Positions 14,901 to 59,990 of a stretch of DNA of 64,000 bases are shown piece by piece (position 1 is the first letter of the stretch; each line of letters begins with the position of its first letter). Under the pieces are notes generated by a model. That model searched no databases, was not told the DNA's origin, and was given only the letters and a program-made list of their open reading frames with translations. This stretch comes from Xestospongia bergquistia (Eukaryota > Porifera > Demospongiae > Haplosclerida > Petrosiidae), in the NCBI GenBank assembly GCA_963965975.1, contig OZ014423.1, positions 6,040,301 through 6,104,300 of the forward strand. The letters are read 5' to 3'. The position numbers and the translations under genes were made by a program.

Positions 14901-15198
14901 TTTCTCCTTCAATGAGACAATGAGAGAATCTACTCTTGATACAACCCAACTAACCTTCTATGATTCTTTTGAAAACTCCACTGTCAACTATACACTGACG
15001 GCATCATTCAGTAATAGTGACAACAACCCTATTCTCAATATATCCTTTGGTTTAATGGACTTGAATGAGATCAAGAGATTACCTCTCTGCACTAGTAGAG
15101 ACAATTGTTATCTCTCCTTCTCACAAGACTTTTTAATGGATATAGTAGCAAAACCCATTTTACCAGTTGAGTATCGTCAACCTTCAAAATTTATCGAG
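5926..15198 (+). repeat. Super-unit 1 (N-terminal, irregular, repeats 1-24)
   Basis: This is the signal peptide, a half-repeat and about 24 Ig-like repeats (residues 1-3091). The module order of the later super-units is recognisable but stretched. Repeat 1 has the F-x-x-F-D start and a Cys pair (ICVSKGSCW), repeat 3 has F-N-E-P-V, and repeat 4 has F-S-D-I-V near 7384. The module lacking L-A-T (LKRLEIGLSS) is repeat 14 near 11335, and repeat 24 carries LCTSRDNCY near 15088. From the L-A-T-less module to the next Cys pair there are 10 repeats instead of the usual 5. Confidence 0.7.
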
Positions 15199-18100
15199 GA
15201 CTCAAAAGCCCCCACTTTGTTATCGTTTGCTCTACTTGACTTTGATCAGGAGATTCTTGTGTTGGAATTCTCTGAGACTTTAAATATTGATACTCTAAAC
15301 TTTGACTCTTTAATATTAAAGAACTTTTTTGTTTCACCACTGGATACAGTCAATATTACTGGTGGTGTACTCTCTAATGAAAATACTACAACACTAAATA
15401 TTTCACTAACAGCTGATGACATTGATTCATTAAAACTATCTCCATATGTATGTACATACATTGGAAACTGTTATGTCGACTTTGATAGTTCTTTTATTGA
15501 AGACATGAATGGAAATCTTATCACTGCCATTGAAGACAAATCCCCTGGCTTTATTGTTCAGAGTTATCAACCAGATTCTATTAAACCTGAACTGTTAGCT
15601 TTTGATCTTGATTTACAGAATGAGACATTGTTACTTCAGTTTAGTGAGCCAGTTGATATTGATAAACTTGATATACGTCAATTTGTTTTTCAAGGTGTTC
15701 AGGATGCATCAGATAATGATTCCCAACTCTATCCACTCACAAATTATATGTCTATTAGTCGTCCTGAATCAAGACTTGTACTTATTGAGCTTGATTCTAA
15801 TGATGTTGAAACTTTAAAATCTTCCATACATTTCAAAGACAGAAACTCAACTTTCCTTTCAATACAAGCTAATGCTGCTCAAGATCTCTCTTTTACACCC
15901 AATGTGATGGATGTAATATTTGATACAGATGCTCTTCAAGTTCGTAATTTCACTGGCGATCTTGATGGACCAAAGCTAATTCAGTTTTCACTTGACTATG
16001 ACAGCAATCAACTCTTTCTTACTTTTAATAAACCAGTCTTACCAGAATCTTTTAACTTTTCTGGACTAACAATACAGAGCAATCCACCTACTGGTCCTTC
16101 TGTTACTCTTACTGGAGGCACTGTTCTCAATGTTCCTGATATAGGAGAAGGCATTATGACTGTCATCATTAACATAACTTTGAATGACATGACAGTTCTG
16201 GAAACAAATGTTTTACTAGCCACCAATGTCAGTGATACATTCATTTTTATTGAATATGATACAGTGACTGATACGTTTGATGTGCCTAATAAAGCACAAA
16301 GTAATATACCAGCAGTTTCCATAACAGCAGATTCCACTAGACCTAATCTAGTAGCCTTTAGTCTTGATATGGACATTGGTTTGCTAAAATTGTACTTCAA
16401 TGATGTAATGGATGCTGAAACCTTTGATCCAATGGGTATTGCAATTCAAAATGATGGTTACAGTGAAGATGAGTACAGAATTGAGCTCACAGATCAAACT
16501 ATAAATATCAGTCCGGATGGCTTTAGTCTTGATGTAAAACTAGGTTTTGACGATTTGAATAGAATCAAAGCCCAACCATCTACTGCTACTTCAAGGAATG
16601 ATACTTGGCTTACAATTCAAGCGTCTACAATAGATGATCCATTTGGAGTTGATGTCCTTGCTATTACAAATGGTAAAGCAATCCAAGCCACTGACCTTAT
16701 TAGTGACATCACTTCACCATCTTTACTGAGCTTCACATTGGATCTTAATGCAGGTGTTATCACTTTGACATTCTCTGAGGCTGTGGTAGCAGATACACTC
16801 AATGTTTCTGCTCTTCTTCTTTTAAGTAACGTGACATATTCAGAGGAGATATATTCAGAGAAACAACACCGATTTAATCCTTATTCCAATATTATTGCCA
16901 AGTCTTTGACTGAAGTTGAACTTATAATGTCAAATGAGAATTTGAATGAATTGAAACAAAAGCAAGAGCTAGGTACAAATATAGAAAACACTTACTTGTC
17001 CATTGAAGAAAGTGCCATATTTGACTATTATAACAATGAAATATCTGAAATCAATACTACAAAAGCTATTCAAGTTATTCCAGACATTACTAAGCCATTA
17101 CTCAGGAGCTTTACATTGGATATGAATACTGGTATACTAGTCTTCACCTTTTCTGAGACTGTCCTTGGGTACACTCTTGACACATCTCAAGTCATTTTAC
17201 AAGGTGTCAAGATATTCAGAACAGGACAAATGATATCCTTAGCTACAACAAATTCCTCAGAAAATGTTTCAGACATTATTCATGTTGAGATATCAATAGA
17301 CGATATGAACACAATTAAACGCCTCACTGAGGTAGCTACTGATCTTGATTCCACTTACCTTGTTTTGGGTAACATGACTATTACAGATACTACTGGTAAC
17401 TATGCTGTTGGTATTCAAGATACAGATGCAAAATTAGCACTCAATTACATTAGAGACACCAATCCACCTTTTCTGGTAAACAGTGTGTTTAATGTTAGCA
17501 ATGATTCCCTCATCTTAACTTTCAATGAAACTGTCAATGCATCAAGTTTTGATGTACTTCAGATCACTTTCTACAATAGAGAGAATGCCTCAAATGGTGT
17601 ACAACTCACTGGAGGAATCATTGAAGGTTCTGATAGTACAGTCATCACTATTACACTTTCTGTTCTAGATCTTAACATTTTAAAATCTGATCTATCAATT
17701 GCTACAAATTCTAATAACACTTTCATCAGCTTTACATCTGCCACACTTACAGACATGGCTGGCAATAGAGTCATTCCCGTTAAATATGGTCAAATTGATA
17801 CATTTGTAGAAGACAAAATTCAACCAGTATTAATCAGCTTTATTTATGATGCTCACAATGGTATCATTTCCCTTAGCTTCTCTGAAACAGTCAATGGTAG
17901 CTCTCTTAACACTACAGCCATTATTTTCCAGAATTCTACAGAAGGAACAGTGGTTTTATACAGGTTAACTGGTGGTTATACTGATGCAAAAGCCTCTGAA
18001 ACAGTTAACATCACATTAGATGTTGCTGACACAAATGCTGTCAAGCGAATTCTTGACTTGGCTAATTCCAAAGATACAACTTACCTCAGAATTGATTCAA

Positions 18101-21100
18101 CAGTCATAATGGATATGAATGGCAATCCTGCAGTTGAAATTTCACAAGATATGGCTCTCAAAGCCTTAGTTTACGTCCCAGATCAAATCCCACCTGTGCT
18201 TCTAAACTTCACCTTGAACATGAATGCATCTGAGATAGAATTAACTTTTTCAGAGACTGTGGATGCTTCATCAGTTAATGTAACTGGATTTAGTCTATTG
18301 GAGTCTCAATCTAACAATACAATATTCATAACACTCACAGAAGGACTTGTCTCTAGAATTGACTCAACTGTAATCATTATCTTTATCAGTACTGACGATG
18401 CCAATCGCATTAAGCAATATCCATCCTTAGCTACTTCTGTCAACAATACCTACATTTCTATAAAAGATTATAGTGTCAGTGATATTGATGGGAATAAAGT
18501 GGAACCAATTGTAAAGGAAAATGCACTTCAAGCTGAAGAGTTCATATCTGATGAGATTGATCCTCAATTGCTGGAATTTTCATTGGATATGAATAAAGGA
18601 ACAATAGCTTTGACATTTGATGAGACTGTCAATTCTACATCACTCAGTCCTATTGAGATCACTTTGCAGAGTGCTGAAAATATCACTGATAGTGTTTTTT
18701 ATACTCTAACCGGTGGTGTAATCCCTGATGGTGAATTTTCTACAGTAATAACAATTGAAATATCTTATTCAGATCTTAATGCTATCAAAGATATTCCAGA
18801 CTTAGCACAATCAATGAACGATACCTACATTTCTATCACTGGCAATGCTATAGAAGACATGTTTGGTAATCTGATTACATCCATTAGTAATGAATCAGCA
18901 CAAATATCTGATACTTTTATTGCTGATAAAACTCCTCCAGAACTACTTTTGTTTGATCTAGACATGGACGAAGGATTGATCACTCTCTACTTTAGTGAAA
19001 TTATTGATTCCAATAGCATTGTTGTGACAACATTAACACTAAAGAATGATACCATAGAGACTGGAACATCTTACACTTTAATGGATGGAGGCAATTCCTA
19101 TGACAATTCGACTATAATTGAGGTCTACATCATGGATGCTGATCTTAATAACATCAAACTAGAAAGACACTTGGCCACTTCTGCTGATGACACTGTCATA
19201 TTAATCACTTCATCAACAGCTCATGACATGGCAACAGATCCTAACTATGTCACTCCTCAACAACTCAATGTTTCTAACTTCACTGAAGATAGTACACCAC
19301 CAACACTCACTTATTGGACAATAGATGTCAATGATGGAGTGATTACACTTGTTTTTGATGAGACTGTTGACAGGACCACATTGAATTTCACTGCTATTAC
19401 TCTTCAATCAGTTATGAATGCTACTAATGAGAGTCAGTACTTCACTCTGACAACAGGACAGTCTTATAGTCCTGATGGTTTGTCTATGGAAGTCATCATC
19501 AATGAAACTGACCTAAATGTTATCAAACAGAATTTAGAACTACTCAGAGGTAATGAGTCTTCCTACCTCTCCTTCTCACAGTATCTTATTAAAGACATGA
19601 ATGGCAATCCAGTAGAAGAAATTCCTTTGTACGAAGGTGAATTTGTTACTAAATACATCAATGACTCCACTCATCCAAGACTCAGAGACTATTGGCTTGA
19701 TATGGACAATGGCATCATTACTTTCTCCTTTTCTGAAACAGTCAATGCTAGTTCCTTTAGAATCAATGGTCTCACATTACAGTCTGTCTTCAACATTACT
19801 CACAAGGACCAGGCATACACATTGACATCAGGTACAGTACTCACAGATGATGATCCTGTCATCAAAGTCCAAATATCCAGAAAAGATATCAATGAATTGA
19901 AAAGGCTCGAAATTGCTCGAGGACCTTACAGAACATTTCTTGTTCTTTCTCCCTACATTATTAGAGATATTGAAGATCATACATTAATTCCACTAGAGAA
20001 TGGTATTAATGCTAGAATGATTACAAATGCTAATCATATACGAGATACAACAGGACCTTATCTTGAAACCTTTGACCTTGATCTTTCCAAGAACATTCTT
20101 ACTCTCTACTTTGATGAGACAGTTCGCACCTCCACATTCGATATAAATCAGATAACACTGCAAAGTACAAATACTAGTGTTAATATCAGCTATGTTCTAA
20201 CTAACAACAGTAAAGTAGTGGATTATAACTACCATACTGTTACAGTACATTTAGGAAATGATGACCTCAATAACATCAAAAGAATCACAGATCTTGCTGC
20301 TGATGAGAATAATACTTACCTTAGTCACACAATTGACTTGGTGGCTGATATGAGGTATAATTATGGCTTTCCTATCAATACAACAGCTGCTCTTCAAGTG
20401 GTCAATTACACAGAGGATGCAGTCAGGCCTGTACTGGAGAGATTTGACTTAGATATGTCAAATGACACATTAACTCTTTATTTCTCTGAGACTGTTAATG
20501 TTACCACACTTAATGCCACTCAAATCATTTTCCTCAATTTGGCCAATGGTTCAGATGAAAGATACATACTTACTGGAGGTTATTCCATATTTGAAAATGA
20601 TCCTGTTGTCACTGTCCAACTACTCAATGATGATTTAAATGTCATAAAACAAATTATAACAATGGCCACTGAAGTCGATGATACATTCTTAGCCATCACT
20701 AGCCTGACAATTCAAGACATGAATAGTAACTATGTCATACCTGTTGAGGAATCCAATGCTACTCAAGTCACAGATTATTTGGAGGACTTAGTCAGACCTC
20801 AGTTAACTGGATTTGACTTAGACATGGATGCTCCTAGTCTTACTTTGTATTTTTCAGAGACAGTGAATGTGTTGACATTGGATCCAACAGAGCTGACACT
20901 TCAAGATGGAGAATTAGCTGATGACTGGTATACACTAACAAATGGAACATCCTATAGCGTCAATGACTCTGTGATCATAATTAATATCACTGACAATGAC
21001 TGGAATGTTCTCAAACAAAACACCAGTTTGGTGACTGGACATGGTGACAGTTTTGTCACTATCACAGAATACCTCATTGAAGATATGAATGGAAATGATG

Positions 21101-24100
21101 TGGTAGCCATATTGAATTCAAATGGTCTCAACATCACCAATCACATACCTGATACTACTTCACCAGAATTATTATCATGGGATCTTGATATGGATATTGG
21201 TAGAATCTCATTGACATTCTCAGAAACTATCAATTCTTATTCCTTTAATCCAGCAAGTATCATCATTCAGTATGCAAATCTCAGTGATACAAATGCTATG
21301 TACCAACTAACTGGTGGTAATTGGACAATGGAGAACATCACTGTTATCGTAGTAGACATTCTTCGCGATCTTGAGCCAACACCAGATGACTTTAATGAGA
21401 TCAAACGAAACATACTGATAGCCACTGCCAAAAACAATACCTACATTTCATTTAATGAAGACTTAGTGGAAGATATGAACTTCAATGCCATTGTTCCATT
21501 ACCTAATGGTATGGCTCAACAAGTTGAAAATTTCACTGAAGACACTACTAGACCATATTTGCATGCATTTGACATTGACATGGATGCAGGAACATTAATA
21601 CTGACATTTGATGAAACTCTAGAGAGAGATTCTCTAACTATCGAGGCCTTTACACTTCTTGTTGAGCCCCAAATACCAGTAGAAATCACCATTAATGTCA
21701 CTAGTATATGGGGCTTTCCTATTCCAGTTCAGGTCAATGTCAGCTATCCAGTACTCAATTTAACCTTAGCTGGTGGTAATGTGATTCCTGGAGATGCTCA
21801 AGTCTTTACTTTAGAACTAACATTTGAGGACCTCAATCGTCTCAAAATACTTGATCTTTGTACATTAGATGGACAAACTAAAGATTGTTTTATTTCTTTC
21901 TCTTCTGATGCCTTCACTGATATGGTTGGTAATCCAGTGAAAAATGTCACTACACGTGAACCAAAACAAGCTCGTTTTTATACTAATGATACCACTCCTC
22001 CATTCTTGATGGATTTTAGCTTGTTTGACTTTGAAAATGATTTAATGAGACTTGTTTTTGATGAATCATATAATATCAGCACATTTGATCCAACTGCCAT
22101 TACATTTCAAAGATGGGGCTACAATGATTCTGATTTGAAACCTGACCTGCCTTTTGTTCCCATTACACTCACTGGTGGCTATGCATTTGAACAAGTTGAT
22201 GACATCACACTGCAATTTACTCTCACTGACTATGATCTCAATCGAATAAAACAAGAAGAAGAACTTTGTGTTGCTGACAGAAATTGCTTTGTTCGTTTTA
22301 CTAGTTCTATCATTGAAGACATGTCCAGAAACCCAGCCAGGGAGCTTAATAATACAGCTGATGAATTATCTGAAACCGTCAGTCTTTTTGAGTATGCCAC
22401 TCAATTTATAGATGATGGAACAGGACCAATAGTAGTAGCATTTCAGCTTGATTTAAATAATGGTAATATAACTCTGACATTCAATGAGACAGTGAGATAC
22501 AGTGATCTCAATATTCAAGCTATCACTCTCTACAATGCTGATGTCAATGCAACACAAAATTACACATTGACTGTCAAAAAGGGCTCAGATACTGTTATTG
22601 ATTGGATATATGTCCAGTTCTTTTTGACTACTAATGATCTGAATGAGCTCAAATATCGGGAAAACTTGGCAATCGATGTTAACACAACATATCTTGAAAA
22701 TACTCTCAATCTCATTGAAGATATGAAGGATAATGATGCCATTGTTCGCTCTGCTTCAAATAGGCTTCAGCTACTCAATTTTTCACCTGATTTAACAGAC
22801 CCAACATTAACACACTTTGCCTTTAACTTAGAGAACAAGCAGATCATTCTCACTGCTGATGAACCCATTTATGTCAACTCCTCTGATCCTACAGCTATAA
22901 CTCTAATTTCAACCTCAAACATTTCAGAAACTGGTGCTTTTTTTTATAAACTAACTGGAGGTACATTTGATTATTATGAAAGAGACACATCTTTAAAGAC
23001 AAAAATTGCTATCACACTGTCAACAGAGGATCAACTTGCAATACAACTCCAAACAAACTTAGGACAAAATTCACAAAATACTTACATTGCTATTACAGAT
23101 GAGGCATTTACTGATATGTATGGCAACCCAGTAGTTCCAGTGAGCAATGACTCTGCCAGACATGTTGATAACTTTATCCCTGATGGAGCTGAAGTGAATC
23201 TCTTAAATTTCACAATTGATATGGATACAGGTACTATGGAATTAACTTTTGATGATGTAATTAAAGCTAGTGCATTTGATGCTACTGGAATCATTTTACA
23301 AAATGCAGAGGAGGAAAGTGATGTTGACAACTTTACATCATATCGTTTTAAAGTTGAAACAGATACAAATTCCACTAATGGCTACAGTGTCCATGTCATT
23401 TTTTCTATTAATGATTGGAATGCTATTAAAAAGGATCTTGATTTAGCAGTGGATATTAATACAAGCTATATTACCACTGATCCTGATAAAACAGTCATTA
23501 GAGACATATCAGATAACATCAACAATGCTATTGAACCTGGACAACAGGCTGTGGGATACATACCAGACACTACAGATCCAGTATTGGTTAACTTTGCTAT
23601 TGACATGAATGCAGGCACACTTGCACTTACTTTTAATGAAGTGATGAGAGCTCATACATTGAATGTAACTAACCTCATTTTGGGAAGCCACAGCAACTAC
23701 AGTTTAGCCAATTTCACTTTCCAACTAACTGGTGGAGAGTCCACACAGCTTGATTCTACACACATCACAGTGACATTCTCTATTGACGATTTGAATGAGC
23801 TCAAGAGAATCACTCCGGGTTTAGCAACAGGAATTGATGACACATATTTAGCATTTGACAACGAGACTATTTTTGATATGAATGACAATCCAGTTGTACC
23901 TATCAGTACAGAGCAAGGTAAGATCGCTGTTGGATTCATACCTGATGTAACTGATCCCAATTTTGTGTCTTTTGAGCTTGACCTCACAGAAGGGACTTTA
24001 ACATTGACCTTTAATGAAACTATGGATGCCAGTACATTTGTTGCAACACAAATCACATTAGTTTCGACTCCTGATGAAAGCTCTCCTGCCTACCAGAAGT

Positions 24101-27100
24101 ACACATTGAAAGGAGGTGTACATTCTCTCAATGACTCCACTGTCATCACTGTCATTCTTGACTTTGACGATCTGAACTCAATCAAGAGTTTACGACAACT
24201 AGCAGTCTCCAACACTTCCACTTATATCTCATTTACTAGTGGTCTTATTCAAGATATGACAAGAAATTCAATTGTTGAAATAACTATACCAAATGCTCAA
24301 CCAGCTCAAAATTATACAGAGGACACTAGACTTCCAGAATTGGAATCATTTGATGTCAATCTGAGTACCGATACAATATTGTTGACCTTCAGAGAAACAA
24401 TTAAACCTGAGTCTCTTAACATCACTTCCATTAGCTTTATTAACAGCAATTTGAATACCACTGTTACTTATGAATTAACAGGTGGCAATCAAACGTATGA
24501 TGACACTCGTTTCTTGAATATAACTCTTAACAAGGAGGACTCTGATCAGATACGCAATTTAACTGATCTTCTAACATCTCGTCATAATACTTTTATAGTA
24601 TTACAAAATTCTACTATAACAGATATGAATGACAACCCGATCACTTATGTTACCAAACAGGTTAATTATTTTACTCAAGATATGGTACGTCCATCCTTCC
24701 TTTCCTATGATCTTGATCTTGATAAGGGTATCATGACTCTCTTTTTCTCAGAGACCATGCAGGTTTCTACTCTCGATACCACACAAATAACAATTTATGA
24801 CAATGTTGATATGAGTGGCTCCTATTACACTCTCACTGGTGGTTATTCCATATATGAAAATGACATCACAATCTATGTTAAACTTTCAGATAATGATTTG
24901 AATGAGTTAAAAAGAATTGAACCTCTTGTTACCAGTGAAAACAAGACATTTATCTCATTGACTTCAGAACTAATTCAAGATATGAATAACAACAAACTCA
25001 ATCCAATCTCCTCAGATGATATCAGAGCTCAAGTTGGCAACTTGATTAATGATATCACTTCTCCTGAAATTGAATCTTTTGTCTTTGATTTAAATTTGGG
25101 AGAAATCCGTATTACTTTCTCTGAAACTGTTGATTCTGAATCACTTCGTCCAGAACATTTTATACTTCATAATTCTCAGAATGAGTCCATTCCAACTTTT
25201 ACCATGTACAATTTAACATCTACTAGTTATACAAACAGTTCAGACAACACATCTATCACCTTGCAACTTAGTCTTGAAGATCTCAATGCCATTAAGCGTC
25301 TACCAGACTTGGCAATAGATTTTGGAACTACATATCTCTCATTTTCATCTCTGGCTATTACTGATATGTTTGATAATGAAATTGTACCATTGAATATCAG
25401 TGAAGGACCAAGAGCTGCTAACTTTTATCCAGATGCTACGCCACCACTACTGGAGGACTTCTCTCTTGATATGAATGACTTCCTCCTCACTCTTTCATTC
25501 AGTGAAACAGTTAATGCCTCAACACTTAACATTTCTGGCATTACACTATATCCAGACAACAGTGGAGAAAATGGGCATAGTCTTGTCAGTCCAGAGACAT
25601 CATCAGACACAATGTATAGCAACATAGTCTACATTAACATCTCGCGAGATGATATGAATTCTATTAAAAAGATTCCACAATTAGCGACTTCTGCTAACAA
25701 TACTTACATATCTATTGAGTCTTCTACTATCAGTGACATGTCTGAATTAAAAGTAGTTGCTATTTCACCATCTATGGCTATTAAAGTGATGGATTACCAG
25801 AAAGATACAGTTGGACCAATTCTTTACAACTTCACTCTTAATCTTACCTCTGAAATTTTAACATTAACATTTGATGAGACTGTTAATGCCAGCAGTATTA
25901 TAGTGAACCAGCTTGTTCTTTTCCCTACAAACAACGTTACAACTGATGGTCGGACATTAGAAGGAGAAGTCGTTTCACAAAATTCGCATATCATTGATAT
26001 TCTCATTGATAGAGATATTCTACATCTGATAAAACTTCAGACTAATCTTGCCACAAATTTATCAAATACTTACCTCCAAATCAAGCCTGGTGTTGTACAA
26101 GATATGTCTTTTGATGCAAATGAAATTCTACCAACTTACGAAGTTGCTGAAACCTTCTTTGCTGACATCACTTCTCCGAGATTGAGCAGTTTCTTAATTG
26201 ACCTCACAAATGGAACACTTATTCTTGAATTTGATGAGCCTGTATTGAGAGAGAGTCTTTATCTACCAGCTATCACTCTTCAATCTACTTCTGGTGTCAA
26301 CAATGGTACCTCATACACTCTAACAGGAGGAGAATGTAACAGCACAAATGGACTTCAACTGAGGATTTACCTTAATGAGGAAGATCTCAATCTTATAAAG
26401 AGAGACAATACACTAGCTATTGACATTAACTCCACCTATATTTCCTTAAAAAGTCAGTTCATCACGGATATGAATGGCAACTTCATCACACCAGTAATGT
26501 CTACTGATGCACAGCAGGCATCCTTATATATGGAAGACACTATAAGACCATTATTAGAGGCATTTGACCTTAATATGAATAATGGTGTATTGACACTTTA
26601 CTTCTCTGAGACAATGGATCTTAGTAGACTTAATATTCAAGAACTGTCTTTGCAAATGATGCCATCAGTAACTAATCCATTACATAGCTATTCTCTCACT
26701 AATAGCTACCTCCTTTCCACTTTGAATTCTACTGATGTCTATATTCAAATCACTGACTTTGACCTCAACGAGTTGAAAAGACGAAGCATAGCTCTTACAA
26801 GTGAAGATACATGGCTGACTTTCCCCAACTCCACAATTCAAGATATGATAGGAGAGCCAGTACAAGCACTCTATAATGGAATAAATGAGGAACCTGTCAG
26901 AAACTACATCCAAGATTTTACACCAATTCAACTTCTCAATTTCCGACTTGACTTAACTGAAGAAACTCTAATCCTAGTTTTCTCTGAAGTTGTCAATACC
27001 ATTGTGGATCTTGATGTCACTCAAATCTCTTTACAATCTTCTGTCAATGCCTCAGAATATGATACAGTGTCTTACACATTAACAAAATCCAGTATGGTTT

Positions 27101-30100
27101 ACAGAGTAGCAGATGATGTCAATATCAACCTGTTTCCAGACCAAAATATTGTGGTTAATGGTAGTGGCAGTGGTAGTGGAAGTAGTGTCGTCACAACAAC
27201 AGTTCTTGAAAATTTTACTGTATCAAACTTTGTAGGCTCATTTGGTCGAGTTTTACTTGTCAAACTATCAACAGAGGACTTAAATGAAATCAAGTTGAAA
27301 GAAACACTTGCTACTGAATACTGGAATACTTACATTCGTATCACCAATGATACAGTTCTTGATACATTTGGTAACCCAACTGTAGAAATTCCAGCAGAAA
27401 ATGCAAAACGATCATCTTTGTTTAATAAAGATAGAAAATTACCACAATTAGATTCCTTTGATATAAATCTTTCTACAGATCAAATCACTTTGAGCTTTTC
27501 AGAATCAGTTAAAGCATCATCTCTTAGCATTAGTCATTTCACCCTACAAGGTAATAATGCTATTGATCTTTATACCCTCACTGACAGTTCAGTCATCAGC
27601 AAAAATGGACATGTCATTATCATTCAAATTGGTTCTTATGATTCTAACCAGATTCGAAATTTGTCAGCTATTGCTGTTAGTAAAGACACAACTTATCTCT
27701 CCATAGCCAGCAATGGAATCACAGATATGAACTCCAATCCCATTCCACAAACAACTCTGAGAGTGAAAATGTATGTACCCGACAGAGTTCCTCCAATGTT
27801 ACTAGACTTTTCACTTGATATGGATGCTGGAATTATTGTGTTCACTTTCTCTGAAACTGTGGATGTTTCAACATTTAATTCATCGGGAATCACGATCCAA
27901 AACTTGGAATCAGGGACTGGTTCGGCTCACACTTTAAGCATTGGTAGAACACAACACTATGATCATACTGTTGTCAGCTATTTCATTACACATAATGATC
28001 TTAATATGATCAAATATTTGTATGATCTGGCAACAAGTGGTTTTGATACCTATCTCTCTATGGAGGATAGTACTATTTCTGATACAGCTGGCAATGAAGT
28101 GACACCAATTCTCCGATCAAATGGCAAACAAGTCACAACCTATACAAGAGACACCACTCCTCCCAAAATTATTTATTTTGCATTTAATGCCAATTTTGGT
28201 CTCATCAACTTTACATTCTCAGAGACAGTCAATATACAAACTTTCAATCCTGAATTCATTGCTCTTTATTCACAAAGCAATGATCCAGAGTCAGGGGAAT
28301 CATTTCGTCTTACTGGTGGTATAATACTTACTGATAACTCAACTGATATAGTTATTGAACTACTTACTGATGATCTTGATGCAATTAAGTCTTTGTCTTC
28401 ATTAGCTATATCTCAATCATCTGTCAACTTAGCTCATCGATATGACATGATTGAAGATATGGCTGGTAACCCAATTTTACCAGTACAACCTCCACATCTT
28501 ATCACTGCAGATAATTTTACATTTGATCAAAGTCAACCTGTATTAACTGACTTTGTTATCGACTTGAATAAAGGGACATTAACACTGGAATTCAGTGAAA
28601 CGGTTTTGAACTCATCAGTGAATTTCACCCAGTTTACTCTCCTAAACAATGAAACCAATTCTACTGTCAAGCTGACTCTCACAGGTGGCAGTTCCACACA
28701 AACAGATTCTGTCCATGTTACCATTACATTATCATTTGAGGATCTCAACTCTCTCAAGAGTTTGAGACTCTGTGATTCCCATATGAATGGAAACGATTGC
28801 TTCATAAAGTACTCTTCAAATGCCATTACTGACACTTCTAGTAATTTTGCCGAACCTCTTGCATTTCCACTTCAAGCTACTTCATTAATACCAGATACTA
28901 CGAGACCTGAAGTTGTTTCTTTTGTTGAATTCAACTATCCTAATGAGACTTTCACATTAGAGTTTTCAGAAGTAGTAGACTTGACAACTTTTGATGCTTC
29001 ACAAATTACATTTCAGACTTTTTTCACCATGCTGACAAATGATGGCATGATAACTCTGTCTGGAGGCATTATTTCTCAAAATAGATACTCATATATAATA
29101 ACCATTGAGATATTGGAACCAGATATTGATGAGATCAAAGCTCATGCTACATTGTGCTTTAGACGGAACACTTGCTGGCTCAGTATAACGAATTCAACAG
29201 TGAAAGATGTTGCTGGAAACATGGTGAAGGCAATACCAACAACTGCTGCCACTTATTCTGACAACTTTATTATTGATACACAATCACCAGAGCTGCAATA
29301 TTTTAATGTTTCCTTGGAAAAGGGTACCATTACTTTGTACTTCAATGAACCAGTTGAGACTGAGTTCTTAGAGGTAAAAGCCATCACCCTTCAAAGTGAG
29401 CAGAATATTAGTGAAGCTGATTCCCTCACACTTAAAAGTAGCACAACAAGCAGCATAAATGGGAGACAAGTTGTGATTGATGTCTCAACAGAAGACATCA
29501 CCAGAATTAAAGCAAGCAATTTCTTTAAGACCGCTAATGACAGCTATCTTTCTTTCACTAATGATCTCATCGTTGATACAGCTCACTCCATGAACAAAAT
29601 TACAGCTATATCAAATGTTATGGCTAACATTGTTAGAATCTATGATGCTGATATAACAGGTCCAGTTTTAATAGGTGCTCATCTAGACTTCACGATTGAC
29701 CACCTAACATTAACATTTGATGAACCTGTTTTAACATCATCCATCAATTATAGTCAAATCATCATTCAATCTGCAAACTATACCTTTGGGCCAGTTAATT
29801 TCAGTCGTTCTCTCACATATGGAGTGCTCACTTCAGAGTCCATTGATGGTGTTACAATTGTGGAGTTTGAACTTGCACCAGATGATATAGAGGTGCTGAA
29901 AATTAACATGGCATTGGCTACTGAAAGGAACAATACATTTGTTCGTCTCCATTATGGTGCTTTTGAAGACAAAGCTTATGAGCCGAATGCCAATCTTGAT
30001 CACACCATTCAAGTCACTCAGTTCACTTCTGACACAAGACTTGCAAACCTTGACAACTTTACTCTTGATTTAAATGAAGGCTTACTCCACATCACATTTG

Positions 30101-36100: not shown

Positions 36101-39100
36101 GAGAAACCTTCAATCCAACAGCCATTACCTTTTACAATGACAATGACAATACTACTGAGACACACACTTTATCTGGAGGCTCAGGAGCTTTGAACTCTGA
36201 AAACTGGTTATACATCAACTTCAATTTACTCCCAAGTGATATCATTGTCCTCAAGTACATGGAATATCTGGCAACAAGCCTTTCAGACACATACATCCTT
36301 ATTACTGATGCTCTCCTTAAAGATATGAATAACAACGCAGCTCAAACCATCACTACAGCAGATCCATTACAAGCATGGAGCTATCGTGAAGATTTAACTG
36401 ATCCACAATTACTTAGTTTCAGACTAGACTTAGAGAATGACTACCTTTATCTCTTATTTGATGAACCAATCAGAGTCAACACCACTGATTTGAGACTTAT
36501 AACTTTTCATTGGACTGCTGTGGGTAGCGATATTCCAGATCTTACATTGACTGGTGGCTTTGTAGAATATGATCCTGTCTCAGTCAACAAATCTAATCTT
36601 CGTGTTGAATTGAATCTTGAAGACATTCGATCTATCAAACTGAGAAGAAGAAATGCAGTAGAAGCTGACACAATTCAAACTTTCTTATCAGTAAAGCAGG
36701 GTATGATAAATGATATGAATAATAATCCACTGGTTGAAATACCGATTAACAATACTCTACCAATTACAAGTCTTGCCCTTGATGGTGCACGACCATCTTT
36801 AACATCATTTAACATAGATCTCGATGAAGGTACCATGACATTCTTCTATGATGATGTAGTCGATCAAGACAGACTAAATCCAACTAAACTTATAATTCAT
36901 GATCAAAGTGACCCTGTAATTAGCCACAAGTACACTCTCACTGGAGGTACCACTGCAACACCTCATGGTTACTTCACAGTATTGGATTTTTCAACTCAAG
37001 ACTTAAACCAGCTGAAGAGAGATGAAGGTTTAACTACAAGCAAAAATGATACATTCATTACTTTCTCACGAGATTTTATTGATGATGATCGTGGTCTAAG
37101 AATAAATTCAATAGCCACAAAAGCATTACAGGTTGACATCTATACCCCAGACACTAACAATCCATCTTTAACAAACTATACGCTTGATATGGATGATGGC
37201 ATTCTCTACCTAACTTTCAATGAGACAGTTAAGTCCAACACACTCAACAAAACATTGATCACATTTCAAAATGTGCAAAATGCTTCTCTCATTGAAAACA
37301 CAACACTGTATGAAGACAGTTCTGTTCTATACTACACACTCACTGGAGGTAGTCACAGTTATTACTATGATGATCCTGAAGTCAATGTCACCTTCTCAAA
37401 ATATGACTGGGATGAGCTTAAAAGAATATATGGACTTGCCATATCAAAAAACACCACATATATTACGTTTCCTGGAAAGTTTCTTGAAGATATGAATGGC
37501 AACTTCATTGTACCAATACCAACCACAAATGCACAGGAAGTGGGTGTTTTTATTCCTGATAATACTGCTCCATATCTTTCTTCATGGAATTTGGATATGG
37601 ACTCTGGCATAATTACTCTCTATTTCCCAGAGACAATGGATGCTTCTTCATTTATTGTGACTAAGCTGAGGATACAATCTCATCAGAATTCCACTGTTGG
37701 TCATACACTAACAGGAGGTCCACATAGTTTAGCTGATACCTTGTATATTGTGGTTAACATCACCAAAGAAGATTTGGATGAAATCAAACATATTGAAGAG
37801 ATTGCAACATCAAGATCTGATACATATCTCTCATTTTTCAGTGACCTAGTACATGACATGGATTTCAACTACATCATACCACGAGCAACTGATAATGGAA
37901 TCCAAGTGTCCAAATTTACAGAAGACATTACTCCTCCATATATTGTGTCTTATGATTTAGATATGAATGCAGATCTTCTTATCTTTACCTTTTCAGAAAC
38001 AGTTGATGCCAGTACTATCAATTATACCTCTATCACTTTACTCAATACTCCCAATGCAACAGAACCAGAGTCCTATTACACACTGACTGGGGGCTTTCTA
38101 ACAATGGAGGACTCCACAATGCTCAATCTCACTTTCTCTAAAACAGACTCAGATGAGATCCGAAGACTCTATACATTGGCCATCACTGCCAATACTACTT
38201 TTCTATCAGTACTTGATACTGTAATTGATGATATGAATTCCAATAATTTGACTACTATTGAGTTTGTTGAGCCATTGAAAGTAACTGACTTCACTGAAGA
38301 CACAACATCACCTGAACTAATTTCTTTTAACTTGGACATGGACTCTGACCAACTGTTCTTAACTTTCTCTGAAACAGTTGATCTGAGTACATTTATTCTT
38401 CAGGAAATAACATTCTTCAGTGAACCCAATGATACAAATGCTTCAAGTACACTCACTTCACATCAACTACAACTTGCCTCTCATACTATAGACAACTCCA
38501 CAATGATCACACTAAATATATCACTAGATGACATGAACCAAATCAAACATCTCCAGTATTTGCTAGCCAATAACATCTCCACTTATATATCAATTACACA
38601 AAGTCTCATAAAAGATATGAATGGTAATAATGTGACAGCCATTTTCTCCTCAAACCCATTGCCAGTTAGTACCTATACTGAAGACACTACATCACCAGAA
38701 CTTCTTTCATTCAATCTCAATATGACATCAGAAATCCTCACACTCTTCTTCTCAGAAACTGTCAACACTAGTACTCTTCAAGTCAATGAAATTACAATGC
38801 AACCTGAAGGTGTTGTTGACGTAAATGACACAATTCATTCTTTCTCTTCCCTTACCACTTTCACTGATACTCCTTTTAATGACATAGTGACCATACATAT
38901 TGGTCTTGAAGATATGAACCGACTCAAACAACTTCGAGGTCTAACAGAGAACACAAACACAACTTTCTTGTCACTTACAAACTTCACTATTCTTGACATG
39001 AATGACAACAATGTGCTCAGCATTTCCTCGTCTTCAGCTCTAAATGTCAATGACTTTTACACTGATTACATACCTCCACAATTAATTGGATTCAGTCTTG

Positions 39101-42100
39101 ACATCAACACTGGTATTCTTGTAATGAATTTCTCTGAAACTGTCGACATATACTCACTTAATATTAGTAAAATTCTTCTTCAACCAGACCAATTAACTCC
39201 ACAAGATTATTCTAATGTGACCTACACTTTACAACATGGTCAACCTCCACTACTAAGCTCAAGTCCATCCACTGATTACCACATAATTCAAATAGATATA
39301 GGCAAAGATGACTTAAATGAAATTAAACGAATTAAGGAATTGGCAAGAGAACCTAATACGACTTACATTTCTTTTCCCAATACATTAATTAGTGACATGT
39401 TTGGTAATAGTATTGTTTACTTACCTAATGGTGAGGCTAGACGAGTCAGTCAATACACTCCCGATAAAACCGGTCCAGTCTTCTTGTCATTTTCTTTCAA
39501 CCTGAGCTCTGAATTGTTAATCCTAACATTTGATGAGACAGTAGATATTAGTACTATTAACATCACTTACATCACATTTATATCTGGAGTGGCTAAACAG
39601 ACCAATGGTTCAGGAGATCACATGTCAGCCAATGGTTCAGGATACATTTCAGGGAGTGGTTCAGGTATCATACTTAGTACTGAACCTTTGACTACATATT
39701 CACTAACTGATTGGGTTAGTATTACTGAAGTAGATGGACCTATTGTGACAATAATGCTGACTGATGATGACCTTCATGAGATCAAACTCCTACGTGATTT
39801 AGCCACCATGCCAAACAACACTTACTTACAACTGCATAAGAAAGCATTCCTTGATAATGCTCTAGACCCTAATCCAAGTCAATCCACTACTCTACCAATT
39901 CTCAATGAAAAGTATGGCTATGATGTAGTTGCTCCTCGACTAACATCTTTTACTGTGGATATGAATACTGCCATACTGGTTCTTAACTTTAATGAACCAG
40001 TAGATAGATTCACATTTAATCCAACTGGTCTCACTCTTCAAGGAGATGAGATTACATACTCTTTGAAACAAGCCATGCAATTGACTGGAGGCTATTCCAA
40101 TAGTACAGATGGTTTGATGATTCGACTTTTGCTTACAAAAGAAGATTTGGACAGACTAAAGCAAAATACTTTGATCTTTACTAACATCAATACATCATAT
40201 CTTGTAGTTGATACGTCCTTTATAAAAGATATGGCAGGCAACCCAATTCAAGCTATTATTGATGGAAGTGCTTTACAAGCTACAGAATACCAAGATGATA
40301 TCAACAAACCAGTTTTAATTGGTTTCTCACTGGACATGAACAGTGCAAACTTAACACTCACCTTCTCAGAAACTGTCAATGTTCAATCACTTGATTTCAC
40401 TCAGCTAACACTACAAAGAACAGCCAATGTCACCAACGATCGTTACCAGTTCAGTCTCACTGGAGGGGAGTTGTGGTCTACAACAAATCACACCCAGATC
40501 TATATTAAGATATCAGATCAAGATCTCAATGAACTGAAATCTAGAACAATTGCTAATAGCAACATAACTGCTTACTTGACCTTCCCCAGCACTGCTCTTC
40601 TTGATATGAATAAGCAACCAGTACAGGCTCAAGTGAATGGATTGTCTGCCTTTGCTGTGACAGACTACACTCCAGATACCACACGACCAAAACTTGTCTC
40701 ATACACTTTGAATCTCACTTCAGGACAAATCAATATTTTATTCTCTGAGACTATCAATGTGATGACGAGCCTTGATGTTACTCAACTTACTTTACAAGAT
40801 GCTGAAACCAGAGTTACAGACAGCCCAGGACTTCGTTATTTCACTTTAAATCCTGATAGTATCTCTATGAGCCCAAATGTTCCAAATGTCATTGTGGAAC
40901 TTAGTACTCCAGACCTCAATGCTATAAAGAGAAGAGAAACATTAGCAACATCTATCTCCAATACATACATTGCTATTACTGAAGCCTATATTGAAGACAT
41001 GGTTGGTAATGATATTGAAGTCATTTCTCCAGAAAAAGGTTTGCAAGCCACAGATGTGTTCAACGATACTGTAAGACCAGAACTAATAGAATACTACCTT
41101 GATTTAACAGCAGATACATTAACATTGAACTTTTCAGAGACAGTCAACACTAGAACCTTTGATATGACTGCTTTCTCATTCTATGCTAGTCAAAATGATC
41201 TAACTGAATTTTATACATTAACAGGAGGCTATATAATATCTCCACCATCTGATATAGTCATAGTTGAATTGTCAACTTTTGATCTCAATATTATCAAAGA
41301 AAAATATGCTCTGGCCATTAATGAAGAAACAACTTATCTCTCCATTACTGAGTATGCTTTGCAAGACATGAGCGGACTTAATGTAATTGCTATTGTTCCT
41401 GAGTTAAGTCAGCAAGTTTATTCATATACTGAAGATTTAGTTCAACCTAAACTAGTCTCATTTGATCTTGACTTGAATTCAGGACCTGGTCTTCTTTTAT
41501 TGACTTTTACAGAAACAGTTAATACTGATACTTTGCAGGTACCATCTATTACTTTACAAAACTTGCCTACTGGCTCTGTTAGCTATACTCTTGACACTAG
41601 CTATACAACCAGCCCAAATGGAGCTGTAGTGAAGATAAATTTAACAGAAGAAGACTCCAATATCATCAAATACCATACTGGCCTAGCAACCAATACAGCT
41701 AACACATTCCTTACCTTCACCGGAGATGCTATTAAAGACATGAACAATAACACTGTTGTAGCAATACCAAATACAAAAGGACACCCCGTTACAAAGTTCA
41801 CTGCAGATACAACATCTCCAATGTTGAGAAATTTCTCTCTTGATCTTACCTCTGAAATTTTGACACTAACTTTCTCAGAGACAATGCTTGCTAACAGTTT
41901 CAAGCCAAAAGAAATAACTTTATTGGCTAGTAGTGTAAATTCATCTCAGGATTATACTCTTACTGGAGGTTATGTCTCTACAAATGACTCTACTGTGATA
42001 ACAGTGATGCTTACATTTGATGATCTCAATGTCTTGAAGACTCTGACCAAGTTAGCTACAGATCTCGATAACACTTATATCAGCATTACCTCATCTTTAG

Positions 42101-45100
42101 TAACTGATATGAATTTTAATCCTGTCATTAAAATCCCACCTGAATCACCACGTAGAGGCAATGCTTTCTTTAGAGATCGAACAAAACCATCACTTGAAAA
42201 CCTTGTAGTAGATTTCAATACTGGTCGCATTATTCTCACATTTTCTGAGACTGTAAACATATCTTCACTGAATATTGCAGAATTAACATTTGTTGACTGC
42301 TGCAATTACTCTACTAACACTGATGGATCTGCAAGCGGATCAGGTAGTAGCCTGTCTGGCTCTGGAAGTGGTTCAGGTAGTGGTTCAGGAAGTGGATCAG
42401 AAAGTGTGCAGTTACCTTTATATAAATACAGCTTGAAGAAGGGGTATTGTAACAATAGTAGTAAAACTGTCTTCACCTGTTATTTAGATGATGAAGATCT
42501 CAACGAGCTCAAACGACGTCCATTATGTACCCAGCAGTCAGATTGTTGTCTCATTTTTACAGGAGATGCTATACGAGATCACTTTGGCAATGAAATAGCA
42601 ACAACATTTGGAGCATGTGGTGTCAATTCCCAATACATTAAGGATGAAAACAGACCCAGTCTTGTTCATTTCACATCTTTTGACCTTGATATGAACATTA
42701 TAACATTGACCTTCAATGAAACTATTGATGCTTCTACCATTAATATGAGCACCATCACTCTACAGTCTTTCTATTACAATCCTCATTACTCTTTCTCTCT
42801 AACTGGAGGCATAGTCCTCAGTTCAGATAGTACAGTAGCTGAACTCCAACTTTCTCAAGATGATATCTTTGAGATACAAAAATTAAGAGCTTTATGTTCA
42901 GAGATCAATAACTGCTGGATATCCTTTAATGATAACTTTGCTAAGGATATGGCTGGCAATAACATTTTACCTGTTCCATCAGACAATGCAAAGCCTGCAA
43001 CTATATTCCAGGATGACATGCAAGCACCCAAACTGCTTGACTTTGAACTCGATTTGAGTAATGATACACTAACACTCACATTTAGTGAGATTGTTGATGC
43101 TGTCTCCCTTGATCCAACAGCTATTACTATTGTAAATGCCCAATCAAATAACTCCATTGCTATCACTCTTACTGGGGGAAGTACTAACAGTCCCGATGGG
43201 CTTGTAATAACTGTAAACCTCCTCAGCAAAGATACTAATAAACTAAGAGCTCTAGACAGCATTGCTAAAAGTGAAAGCAATACCTTCCTATCAATAACCA
43301 GTGACTTAATCAATGATGCAGTACGGCTTATACCAAATCCAGTTGATGCTACCAATGCATCCAATGCACTGCAGATCAAACCAGGAGGACTCTATCCTGA
43401 TGTTATCCCTCCAGAACTGACAGGATTCTCATTAGACCTTGACAAAGATACTATTACATTGACATTTGATGAGCCTGTCCGAGTATCATCTATACTCTTC
43501 CACTACATCACACTTATTTCACAACCTATTAACATTCCTGAAAGCTTCAGAATATTGACTGGAGGAGAGATTGATGATAAAACGAACTACAATGGTACTA
43601 TGAAGATTGTTGTTCACTTAACTCAACCTGATATTCGCCATTTCAAACTCTCAGAGACTGACCTAGCTAATGATGAAACAGATACTTTCATTAGTGTCAT
43701 AAGAGGTATGATACTTGACATGGCTGACAATCCTCTAGTGGCCATTCCTTACAATGAATCATTACAAGTCAACAATATAATTCTTGATACAACACCAGCA
43801 ACTCTTATTGACTTCCAACTTGATATGAATAAGGGACTTCTTCATTTAACTTTTAATGACATCATCAATAGTTCTACACTATATGCTCCTGCCATTACTA
43901 TACAAAGCTCCAAATATATCATGACTCATTATGTAACATTGACAAAATCTAGCATCACTAACAGTGTCAATGGTTACTATATAACAGTCAATATATCCAC
44001 TGAAGATTTAAACCGTATCAAACTCAATGACAATCTAGCAACACAACTTGCTAATACGTATGTTTCAATGAGAGCTGAAGCATTTATGGACAATTTTGAA
44101 GTGGATGTTATAACTGTGACCAGCCACGATGCACTCTCTGTGTCCAACTTTATAAATGACACAACATCACCTGAGCTCCTGTATTTCTCTCTTGATATGG
44201 ATTCTGGTACAATCAGTTTGACATTTGATGAAACTGTCAGAGCAAATACCATTGTTGAAGAAGAGATTACACTGTTAGGATCTTCAAACATCTCCTCAAA
44301 CACATCCTATGTGACTTTGATTGATGGACTTGCCTCAACACAAGACTCAACTGTAGTTGACATCTACATTGTCAATGACGATTTGAATGAAATCAAATTT
44401 CTGACAGATTTGGGAACTTCCATAGATAATACTTTTATTGCTTTTAATAGTGAACTCATAATGGATATGAATGGTAATCTAGTAGCTGCTATCAGTGAGT
44501 ATGATGCTCAACAAGCTAACCAATTCTTTGAAGACCAAACTTCACCATCACTTGAGTCATTTTCTATAAATCTGACTGATAACACGCTTACATTAGTATT
44601 CAATGAAACAGTTAATGCTACTTCTCTCATGACAACTGAACTCACTATTCAAGGTGATGTCATACCAGAACATAATGCCTACAGATTATTACAGTCGAGT
44701 TCTGGTTCATCAGATGATTCAACTATTATAATAGTCTATTTGGGTCTGAGTGATCTTAACGAAATCAAAAGACTAACTAATGTTGCTACCTCTAAAAATG
44801 ACACCTATCTTTCAGCCACATCATTGACAATTGAAGATATGAATGGCAATCATCTAGTAAGTGTGTCATCTGGTAATGCTATACAAGCCTCTGACTATTA
44901 TGGTGACACCATCAGACCTTATCTAGAAGGATTTAATCTCAATCTCTCATCTGAAATACTGACTTTATTCTTCTCAGAAACTGTACAAGCTAGTACTCAC
45001 TATGTTCAACTATACACATTGCTATCATCAGAAAGTACTGAAGATACAAGGTATAACTTGACAGGTGCCCTAGCTACCAGTGAAGATTATCATATCCTTG

Positions 45101-48100
45101 AAGTTGAGTTAACGACAGCTGATTTAAATGTCATTAAACGTCTCACTGATTTGGCTACTAATGACAACAACACCTATATTCTTGTGGAAGCAGGAGCTAT
45201 TAAAGATATGTTTGGTAATCCACTTCTTCCATTAGAAAAGACAATTCAAGTCACAACATTCACTGAAGACTTTGTTCAGCCAATTTTGACTCATTTTGAT
45301 CTGGACATGAATGTAGGCGAGTTAACTCTGTTCTTCTCAGAAACAGTGAACACATCCACACTCAGAGTTGACCAACTTCTTTTACAAGACAATCAATACC
45401 TACCTAATGCAACGAATAACTTTTGGTTGACAAATGATAGCTACATAAATTCTACTAACTACCATATTGTCATTGTATACATTGGTGATAATAACCTCAA
45501 TGAGATAAAGAGACTCTATACCTTAGCACTAGACAATTCAACAACTTATCTCTCTATCACAAGTGATTTAGTAACTGACATGAACAATAACTCTATCATA
45601 GAAATACCAGATACTGCAGCCTTATTTGTATCTAAATATAACAGAGACACAACTCCACCAGAGTTGGAAGAATTTGATCTCAACATCAACATGAGTTTGC
45701 TTGTGCTTCACTTCAGTGAGACAGTAGACAGGGAGTCTCTCAATGTAACAGCTATTGTCATACAACACAACATTAGCTCCACCTCTGATGTACATGTTCT
45801 TGTTCTTAGTTACAACAGTTACTCTATTTCATCTAATGGTACTACTATAACTATACACATCAGTATATATGACCTCAATGAACTCAAACGTCTCAATGAA
45901 ATAGCTACTTCAAGCAATAACACATACCTTTCAATAACATCTGATGCCATTCTTGATATGGCTGGTAATCCGGTTGTACCAATTCTTCAATCTGATGCAC
46001 TTCGTGGACGCATTTTTATCCCTGATGAAATCCGTCCAGAATTAGAAGACTTCAGCCTAGATATGAATATAGGTATATTACAGCTAACCTTCTCAGAAAC
46101 TGTCAATGCTATGACATTCAATATTTCTACTATTACATTACAATCTACCAGTAATACTTCTGAAAGTTATACCTTAAAAGAAGGTCTCCTGCCAAATCTC
46201 TCCTACTCTAATAGCTCAGACAGCACTATCTTGACAGTGTATCTTGGTATTGAGGACATGAATGCACTCAAGAAAATCTACAACCTTGCTACAACTGAAA
46301 ACAACACATTTTTGTCAATCACTGAGAATGGGGTTGAGGATATGACAGGATTAAGTCTAGTTCCTATACCATTTGATGAAGCACTTCCTGTTACCACATA
46401 CATTGTGGACAGCACTAGCCCAATTTTGCTTTCCTTCTCTCTTAGCCTGTCATCTGAAATCCTATCTTTAACATTTGATGAAACTGTTAATGTTGACAGT
46501 TTTAATGTCACAGAACTCACTATACAATCTAGTTCTAACTTCTCTGTCAGTACATTTGTTGATCTTAAGGATTTGACAGATCTCTCTCCTGAAAACTCGA
46601 CTATTGTTTCATTCCGTCTTGCCTACGATGATCTCAATGACATCAAACTTGATGAAAATTTAGCAACTGGCTCCTTCAACACTTGGCTAAGACTATTCCC
46701 TTCAGCCATTACAGATATGGCCTATGAGCCAAATCCAATCGAAGATACAATACAGAGAGTGACTCACTACACTAATGACAGTATCAAGCCAAACCTATTG
46801 TCATTTTATGTTGATCTTAATGCTGGGTATCTTGTTTTGAACTTTGATGAGCCAGTAGATGTGTCCACTCTAAACTATACATCATTCACTCTCTACTCTA
46901 CCAAACCAATATCAGATATAATCAATGCATCTCTATCTTTAAATGGCACATTCTTTTCTGCCAATGGTTCTGGTATAGCTTCTGGTAGTGGCAACAATGA
47001 GACACCTTTGACATATTACACTTTAACTGATGGCTTTACAAACAGTAGTAATGGACTCCAGATTACACTGGTGTTTACAGTCAATGATCTTAATGCAATC
47101 AAGAAAGATGAATATCTCTATACTAACAGGCATTCATCTTACCTCAGTATTACGCAGTATGCCATTGAAGACATGACTACAAACCAAATAAACAGCATCA
47201 ATCCTTCAAATGCAATCAGAGCATTCCAATATGTCAATGATGAAACATCTCCAGTACTTACTGGTTATGATCTTGATATGAATACCGGTCTTCTTATACT
47301 TTACTTCCCAGAGACCATTGATGTGTCCAGTATTATGTTTGATGGTATTGTACTACAAAGAAGCTCCAATGTAACTATTAGTACAGGACAATATATGTTA
47401 ACTAGTGGCAGACTTAATATGACAGAAGATGGCATTGCTGCATATATACAGATCACACATGATGATTTGAATGAGATCAAGCAACGTAGAATTGCTTTAT
47501 CTAATTCTACAACATGGTTAACAATTGAAAAATCAACTCTTTTAGACATGAGTGAACAACCATTATTACCTCTTGTAAATGGCTATTCAGCCAAACAGGT
47601 AGCAGAGTATACATCTGATATAACATCACCAACATTACAGTCTTTTGTACTGAATCTTGATGCCAATACACTATTTATGAGTTTCTCTGAGACAGTAGAT
47701 GGCTATAATCTGAATGTGAGCACCATTACTTTGCAAGACACCTCAAATGGTAGTCATTTGTATAACCACTATTCACTTAGTTCTGACTCTAGCTATGTCA
47801 CCAGTGCTTATGGACCCAATGTCACTATCACCATTGGCTTGGATGATATGAATATTATTAAAGAACTTATTGAACTGACCATAGATAAGAATAGTACTTT
47901 TATTAGCTTTACACTAGAATTGGTCGCTGATGTCTTTGGAAATGATGTTATTGATATTAAATCCACTTCAGCTATGCAAGTATCTGAACTCATTGATGAT
48001 AAAACATCACCAGTACTTGAAGCATTTGAGCTTAATATGGACACTAAAGTTCTTCGACTATATTTTTCAGAAACTGTCAATGGTAGCTCTCTTAACATCA

Positions 48101-55993: not shown

Positions 55994-57035
55994 CTTGAAA
56001 ACTTGTTTTTCTGATGATGTAATAACTATCAAATAAAGTTTATTTCCTGCATTACAGGAATACCACAAATGTTAGGAATAAAGGTGTTTATTAGCTGTAG
56101 ATATAACATGAGGTCTTTACAGTGTCCACCTAATAGTTCATGAAGTTTGCTGATAAAGGATATTTTTGTTGACATTATAGTGCTGCTACCATCTTGTCAA
56201 AAGAGTATGTTGATAAAGTAGTAGTAGTTATCAGATGTATCTGAATTGTCTTCATGTTTTTAAGCATAGCAGTTGTAGTATTCATATGTACCAAGTGAAT
56301 AAGTAATCATGAGGGCAAGTTCTCTTTGCATTGTACTTGACAGCCACAATTGTTCAGAGATTTTTGTACTGTGTTAAGGTAAAAATATGGCGAGCTGTGT
56401 GTCGCCCATGAATCTCATTAACGATAACTGCATATGATTACCAGCAAACTGTGACTGTTAAAACTAAAACTAAAACTATACTAGGACTAAGAATAAAACT
56501 AATCCAACTTAAGCAAACTAGAACAACACTACTAATGATAATAATTTTTATCATATTTTAATTTTACAGGGGCTTAAAAAATCATTACCTAAACACTCTT
56601 CATTATCTTTTGTTCCTTCTATCTAAATTTATAAGAGCTCCTTTAGTTTCTCAAGTACTCCAAACAAGCATATTTGGATAAGTATCTCTAGTTAATGGCT
56701 ATTGACTTGCCTTGTCATAGCTATGATTAGCTAATTATATAGGGTCAACCTAAGACTGTTTATATAACAGTTAATACAAAAATGGACATTCATATTTTTA
56801 TAAAAAGTGGTCCCATAACTTTAAGCTTTTAAAAAAAATTATAATGTAAAAATATAGTACATCAAGAGAAGTCAGGTAAATAATAAGTTGTTAATAATAA
56901 GTTATAAACACAAAGATAAAAAAATATAAGTTAAAAAGGTTTTGGATGTAATAAATCTATACTATCAGTCACAATGAGGGACAGGGGTCAATTCCCTTCT
57001 AGAGAGGGAGATGAGAGAGAGGCTTAATTTTATGT
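55994..57035. other. Intergenic DNA with no gene recognised
   Basis: AT-rich DNA upstream of the CD225-like gene, presumably including its promoter. I see short AAAACT repeats near 56460-56478 and A-rich tracts near 56828-56940, but no open frame with recognisable content and no RNA gene. Confidence 0.6.
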
Positions 57036-58893: not shown

Positions 58894-58917
58894 CTTGATG
58901 TTAAAGCTAATTTTAGA

Positions 58918-59574: not shown

Positions 59575-59990
59575 TTCAAAGGCCCAAAGCTGTCTTGACA
59601 ATTATTTCAATGGTCCGAAGCTGTCTTGACAATTATTTCACGGTCCGAAGCTGTCTTGAAAACCATTCACCAAGCTGCCTTAACAACAATTCTTGTAAAG
59701 GCCTGAAGCTGTCTTGACAATTATTTCATGGTCCGAAGCTGTCTTGAAAACCATTCACCAAGCTGCCTTAACAACAATTCTTGTAAAGGCCTGAAGCTGT
59801 CTTGACAATTATTTCATGGTCCGAAGCTGTCTTGAAAACCATTCACCAAGCTGCCTTAACAACAATTCTTATAAAGGCCTGAAGCTGTCTTGACAATTAT
59901 TTCATGGTCCGAAGCTGTCTTGAAAACCATTCACTAAGCTGCCTTAACAACAATTCTTGTAAAGGCCTGAAGCTGTCTTGACAATTATCA
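59575..59990. repeat. 88-bp tandem array, about 4 copies
   Basis: GCCTGAAGCTGTCTTGACAA recurs at 59701, 59789, 59877 and 59965, an exact 88-bp spacing. Each unit itself contains two diverged halves starting GAAGCTGTCTTGA (one followed by CAATTATTTCATGG, the other by AAACCATTCACC). Leading half-units lie at 59585-59660. Copies are nearly identical, so the array is young. Confidence 0.9.

Follow-up and report, generated by a model that had tools for sequence, protein, structure and literature searches.

We analysed a window of 64,000 nucleotides from the sponge Xestospongia bergquistia (contig OZ014423.1, hereafter C13, positions 6040301–6104300; assembly of 146.5 Mb in 21 contigs), which holds the starts of two giant, divergently placed genes lying about 1.2 kb apart on opposite strands. 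Protein A is contained in the window as an open frame of 16,016 amino acids (aa), made of 127 immunoglobulin (Ig)-like units of about 125 aa each; protein B begins inside the window and runs out of it to the left. In A, the domains recur in a real, confirmed super-period of 18, which covers domains 25–114 (14836–49134) and not the entire protein. B is built from blocks of 23 domains, and the two proteins have in common a header of five domains in fixed order, two of them carrying a Cys pair, set among differing numbers of spacer domains (Table 1).

A was divided into units with a profile of its own sequence (HMMER), four split units being rejoined and domain 1 remaining a half unit; domain numbers used here are the repeat numbers of a sequence-only reading of the same DNA plus one. 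That reading had proposed that variant modules recur at 18-repeat intervals, and a marker-free comparison bore this out. All-against-all similarities were double-centred, excluding the half domain 1, and 109 offsets were compared with 3000 shuffles. The top four were 36 (z = 9.6), 18 (6.7), 72 (4.3), and 54 (3.6), with shuffle maxima of 3.3 at the 95% point, 4.5 at the 99.9% point, and 4.8 as the largest of all 3000; offset 36 was stronger than offset 18. Raw identity agreed, since domains 36 apart averaged 0.327 and those 18 apart 0.320, compared with a mean of 0.299. When only domains 26–115 were used, z reached 12.0 (36), 7.7 (18), 5.8 (72), and 5.0 (54), the next offset scoring 2.5. When slot labels were permuted inside each core block, the 18 slots together reached z = 16.8, the five header slots alone 8.0, and the remaining 13 slots 10.4, none of which was equalled in 3000 shuffles, and the ten spacers left after exclusion of slots 36–38 still scored 4.3. 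On the offset test and the slot-label shuffles together, chance was rejected as the source of the super-period. A sub-period of 6 was also rejected (z = 1.8), periods of 6, 9, and 12 scoring solely as divisors or relatives of 18. The blocks measured 2228–2328 aa (mean 2287 aa), where the sequence-only reading had given about 2,280 residues.

Five motif markers had been named as agreeing on this period, and all ten DNA coordinates given for two of them fall on the motif in question (domains 26, 44, 62, 80, and 98, and domains 29, 47, 65, 83, and 101). Scored across all 127 domains, four of the five were present in every copy of their slot (slots being named after the domains of super-repeat 1), provided that N may stand in place of D and Y in place of F. 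The motif F-x-x-F/L-[D/N] occurred in 5/5 slot-26 domains, ending in N instead of D in two, and in no other core domain; outside the core it was found in domains 2, 4, and 23. All five slot-29 domains carried [F/Y]-D/N-D-V/I (four if F is strict), which was seen nowhere else among the 127. A Cys pair marked 5/5 domains of slot 25, the closing Cys modules of the hand numbering, as well as 5/5 of slot 26, again with no other core domain sharing it. E/K-P was complete in slot 28 (5/5) and was also common elsewhere, with six further core domains, of which slot 37 accounts for four. The L-A-T-less pattern, which we scored with a regular expression of our own, was the one marker to fall short, being found in 4/5 slot-38 domains and in four further core domains. 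Recurrence of E-P in slot 37 (domains 55, 73, 91, and 109; 4/5 copies) constitutes a sixth slot marker, absent from the sequence-only reading. In addition to that, an in-frame Gly-Ser tract lies inside header domain 97 (42169–42636).

Table 1 Coordinates of proteins A and B, their internal blocks, and related genes (window positions unless C13 is given).
Feature	Position	Strand	Remarks
Protein A	5926..53976	+	one open frame
N-terminal unit of A, domains 1-24	5995..14835	+	domains 1, 2, and 4 header-like; without 18-domain register
Super-repeat 1, domains 25-42	14836..21534	+	2233 aa
Super-repeat 2, domains 43-60	21535..28518	+	2328 aa
Super-repeat 3, domains 61-78	28519..35202	+	2228 aa; nearest to super-repeat 1
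Super-repeat 4, domains 79-96	35203..42168	+	2322 aa; nearest to super-repeat 2
Super-repeat 5, domains 97-114	42169..49134	+	2322 aa
Header cassette 1, domains 25-29	14836..16698	+	in order: Cys pair; F-x-x-F/L-D with Cys pair; plain; E/K-P; F-D/N-D-V/I
Header cassette 2, domains 43-47	21535..23559	+	
Header cassette 3, domains 61-65	28519..30399	+	
Header cassette 4, domains 79-83	35203..37143	+	
Header cassette 5, domains 97-101	42169..44151	+	
C-terminal part of A, domains 115-127	49135..53973	+	outside 18-domain register
Protein B, start	1..4767	-	same domain family; 41,537 aa from ATG at 4747; frame continues outside the window, ending about 119,866 bases left of window position 1
Predicted intron of B	4990-4768	-	GT...AG, 223 bases; read by eye from DNA
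Predicted first coding exon of B	4991..5033	-	signal-peptide-like; read by eye from DNA
Gene C	C13 5,684-5,729 kb		frames of 13,759 and 2,361 aa, same family
Further family member	C13 near 5,806 kb		frame of 2,995 aa

In a tree built from the 90 core domains, 33 had a same-slot domain as their nearest relative and one had an adjacent domain; among the 29 cherries of this tree, 12 joined same-slot domains and none joined neighbours. Together with the low score of offset 1 (z = 1.9), this led us to reject duplication of adjacent repeats as the main recent mode, the pattern that the sequence-only reading had itself named as fatal to its proposal. Slots 26, 28, 29, 36, and 38 formed clades of exactly five domains, with Shimodaira–Hasegawa (SH)-like approximate likelihood ratio supports (SH-aLRT) of 94, 86, 87, 0, and 94, respectively. 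The block tree, computed from 2,237 columns of concatenated blocks, was ((1,3),(2,4),5), with bootstraps of 97 and 100 and an approximately unbiased (AU) test value of 0.988, compared with ≤0.029 for each of the remaining 14 topologies. Centred block scores, counted from domain 26, were 0.42 for blocks 1–3 and 0.37 for blocks 2–4 versus 0.10–0.27 for other pairs, and the block lengths match the tree (2233/2228 aa for 1/3, 2328/2322 aa for 2/4).

Gene conversion among slots could account for the unexpectedly similar block pairs 1–3 and 2–4 by keeping same-slot domains alike. However, same-slot identity is just about 30–39%, the branches leading to blocks approach one substitution per site, and the high-identity patches that recent events would leave were not seen at the protein level, the best domain pair in A reaching 50% identity; we regard conversion as very improbable. 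Because the offset profile, label shuffles, domain tree, and block tree agree, growth of A by duplication of 18-domain blocks within domains 25–114, with their order retained, is well supported. The later duplication unit was probably two blocks (36 domains), and the simplest history is that 18-domain duplications came first and one of 36 domains came after them. In the core-block comparison, domains 8–25 and 116–127 showed no 18-domain register, and for that reason the protein as a whole did not grow in this way; the earlier claim of growth by 18-domain blocks is partly supported, holding for domains 25–114 and differing from our reading in the end domains and in the probable 36-domain step. 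Within the C-terminal part, domains 122–126 gave their top profile scores with slots 36–40, in order, and domain 127 with slot 25.

The frame of B fills one exon of about 124.6 kb, comprises 334 domain units, and terminates inside a domain. Its ten strongest offsets (of 249) were 23 and its multiples up to 230, the first with z = 25.6 compared with 4.5 for the best of 600 shuffles, indicating a 23-domain block repeated about 14 times. The register extends to approximately domain 321: the expected slot was the best one for 22/32 of domains 290–321 and for 0/12 of domains 322–333. Each super-repeat of B contains two headers, 12 and 11 domains apart, and header cassettes are spaced 8,565 ± 45 bp. 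In A and B alike, same-position domains of successive blocks are nearer to one another than neighbours are. Convergence, with selection setting similar motifs every 18 domains in otherwise unrelated domains, would fit the fact that header slots are the most distinctive. Non-header slots nevertheless carry the register on their own, both in A (the 13 slots above, and the ten spacers without slots 36–38) and in B (z = 22.1), and the domains of slots 26, 28, and 29 each group as a clade; on the non-header shuffles we reject this explanation, whose probability we consider close to nil.

Two genome searches with pieces of A returned at least 119 and at least 106 matches, with all listed matches on C13; these searches score the best candidates only, and the counts are lower bounds. 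Among the family members found there, gene C (in the parts that were read) contains domains of the header and slot-38 types, less regularly spaced. It also has a Gly-Ser tract, longer than that of domain 97, in a domain that begins at C13 5724256.

The predicted fold of the A domain is closest to an Ig-like domain of the bacterial S-layer protein SbsC, the match covering most of the domain and scoring well above unrelated chains, at a sequence identity of 11–13%. Big_5 (PF13205) scored 19.9 bits at window positions 15199–19200, below the Pfam cut-off of 23.6, and matched 7/34 single domains at E ≤ 1 (best 0.0059); a whole-genome Big_5 search had 0 matches at E = 0.001, with controls detected in 5/14. 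CopC (PF04234) scored 23.6 bits versus a cut-off of 23.3 in one 1,334-aa piece, with just 25 residues aligned, and matched one of the 34 single domains (E = 0.087). Isolated hits to MCM_lid (E = 0.0004) and SBB_T7 (E = 0.0014), in one of the 34 domains each, were taken as chance. Titin-type I-set Ig and fibronectin type III (FnIII) domains gave no Pfam match at E ≤ 10 in three A pieces, and were not among the 25 families listed for the 34 single domains at E ≤ 1. An NCBIfam search yielded nothing useful, sequence searches of the PDB returned 0 matches, and tblastn against plasmids found no match. Prokaryote genomes gave six pattern matches with no relative confirmed, in a scan that detects close relatives only. 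A and B differ from Big_5 and SbsC proteins in having hundreds of copies in an animal, in their 11–13% identity, and in missing the Big_5 cut-off.

Elsewhere in the window, a 63-bp tandem array occupies positions 57035–58896 (30.1 copies, 86% matches); its unit equals 21 codons, and stretches of it are open on both strands. A second array, with an 88-bp unit, lies at 59617–59988 (4.2 copies) and appears to have been amplified recently, since its copies match at 98%. The flank contains a POU-homeodomain gene, and about 0.9 kb past the end of the B frame lies a gene that, judged by eye, looks DIP2-like. The genome has at least 163 SRCR matches, while innexin gave no match in a genome search whose control also gave no signal. 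The POU gene marks the DNA as animal, and the SRCR matches, the innexin result, and the glass-sponge giant described below make a sponge probable.

Taken as a whole, we consider it probable that A and B are divergently placed paralogues, belonging to one family of giant filaments that are probably secreted and consist of SbsC-type Ig-like domains, built on two levels: domains, and then super-repeats that each combine the ordered five-domain header with more generic spacers. A would have grown by tandem duplication of the 18-domain super-repeat and later of a 36-domain, two-super-repeat piece, and B by duplication of a 23-domain super-repeat with its two headers. The N-terminus of A is signal-peptide-like, and secretion of A is likely. 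Its predicted mass is 1.77 MDa, its predicted pI is acidic (4.06), and it has 474 N-glycosylation sequons versus 278 expected from composition. The protein may form an extended, acidic, glycosylated extracellular filament. The header may act as a regularly spaced, disulfide-stapled site that binds a partner or the filament itself; the spacers would then set how far apart headers lie.

Several observations weigh against parts of this reading. The DNA encoding the signal-peptide-like start of A can also be read as an intron pyrimidine tract followed by AG, which leaves the start ambiguous and is the reason why secretion is graded no higher than likely. The prediction that clades would group slots was borne out for 5/18 slots, one of them with zero support, and not for the other 13, which form no clean clades, as expected at about 30% identity. 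Three rival block topologies pass the SH test, and the AU replicates were below the number that the program advises. The spacer-only score is at chance for blocks 1–4 (616/3000 shuffles) and weak for blocks 1–2 (243/3000), and the older block relations consequently rest mainly on headers. Header slots, in turn, are no more conserved than the rest, with identities of 0.295–0.33 in slots 26–29 versus up to 0.387 in spacers. The block tree of B is star-like, with one branch at 99 and the others at ≤68, and no whole-length cross-register links A to B (largest z = 2.9), the header alone being shared.

It is also quite possible, if somewhat doubtful, that the super-period is merely history, left by unequal crossing-over of blocks and subsequent divergence, with spacing and length free of function. 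Low same-slot identity (about 0.31–0.39 vs 0.305) makes mis-pairing between domains unlikely, and no single spacing has been retained, given 18 domains in A, 23 in B with headers 12 and 11 apart, and ends of 24 and 13 domains in A. Set against this are the same order of five header types in A and B and the mere 45-bp variation in the header spacing of B, both of which a retained function would also produce, and both of which are compatible with neutrality too. The structural super-repeat that the sequence-only reading had drawn from conserved order is not proven by that order alone, because domains at about 30% identity cannot mis-pair and order can persist without selection; as regards the functional weight of header distance, neutral history accounts for the retained order almost as well. 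A more specific form of the filament reading, in which headers are docking or cross-linking sites and A and B are extracellular rulers or scaffolds that set matrix or surface-coat spacing, would amount to titin-like logic outside muscle, from a bacterial-type Ig domain, in two gauges (18, and 12 + 11) of one system; we put it forward tentatively and think it rather unlikely.

Titin, at about 35,000 aa, and nebulin offer the closest muscle precedents. Nebulin groups small modules into super-repeats along a filament; its module is unrelated, intracellular, and actin-bound. The titin A-band (C-zone) has 11-domain super-repeats, described together with the ruler idea, and titin resembles A and B as a giant string of Ig-like folds in fixed-number blocks whose same-position domains are nearest, most clearly in the central blocks (PMC10665226). 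Titin mixes Ig and FnIII domains and works inside muscle cells; A and B differ in their predicted SbsC-like domain, their units of 18 and 23 domains, and their nearly single-exon genes. In size and exon structure, the only features compared, B resembles Avas.s016.g412.i1 of the glass sponge Aphrocallistes vastus, reported as a protein of 49,014 aa encoded by one 147-kb exon in a compact genome, another giant single-exon sponge protein of the same order of size (PMC10282587). Giants encoded by one exon (glass sponge) and super-repeats (titin) are already published. A literature search whose coverage mostly excluded subscription papers and preprints found no giant protein, extracellular or from a sponge, with a super-repeat.

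With about 41,500 aa in one exon, B would rank among the largest predicted animal proteins. Two neighbouring giants with different, exactly kept super-periods and a common ordered header amount to a natural experiment in the growth of the largest proteins, in which the duplication unit is a multi-domain block and not the single domain. If the header is a true binding site, they would show the super-repeat logic of titin for a second time, here outside cells.
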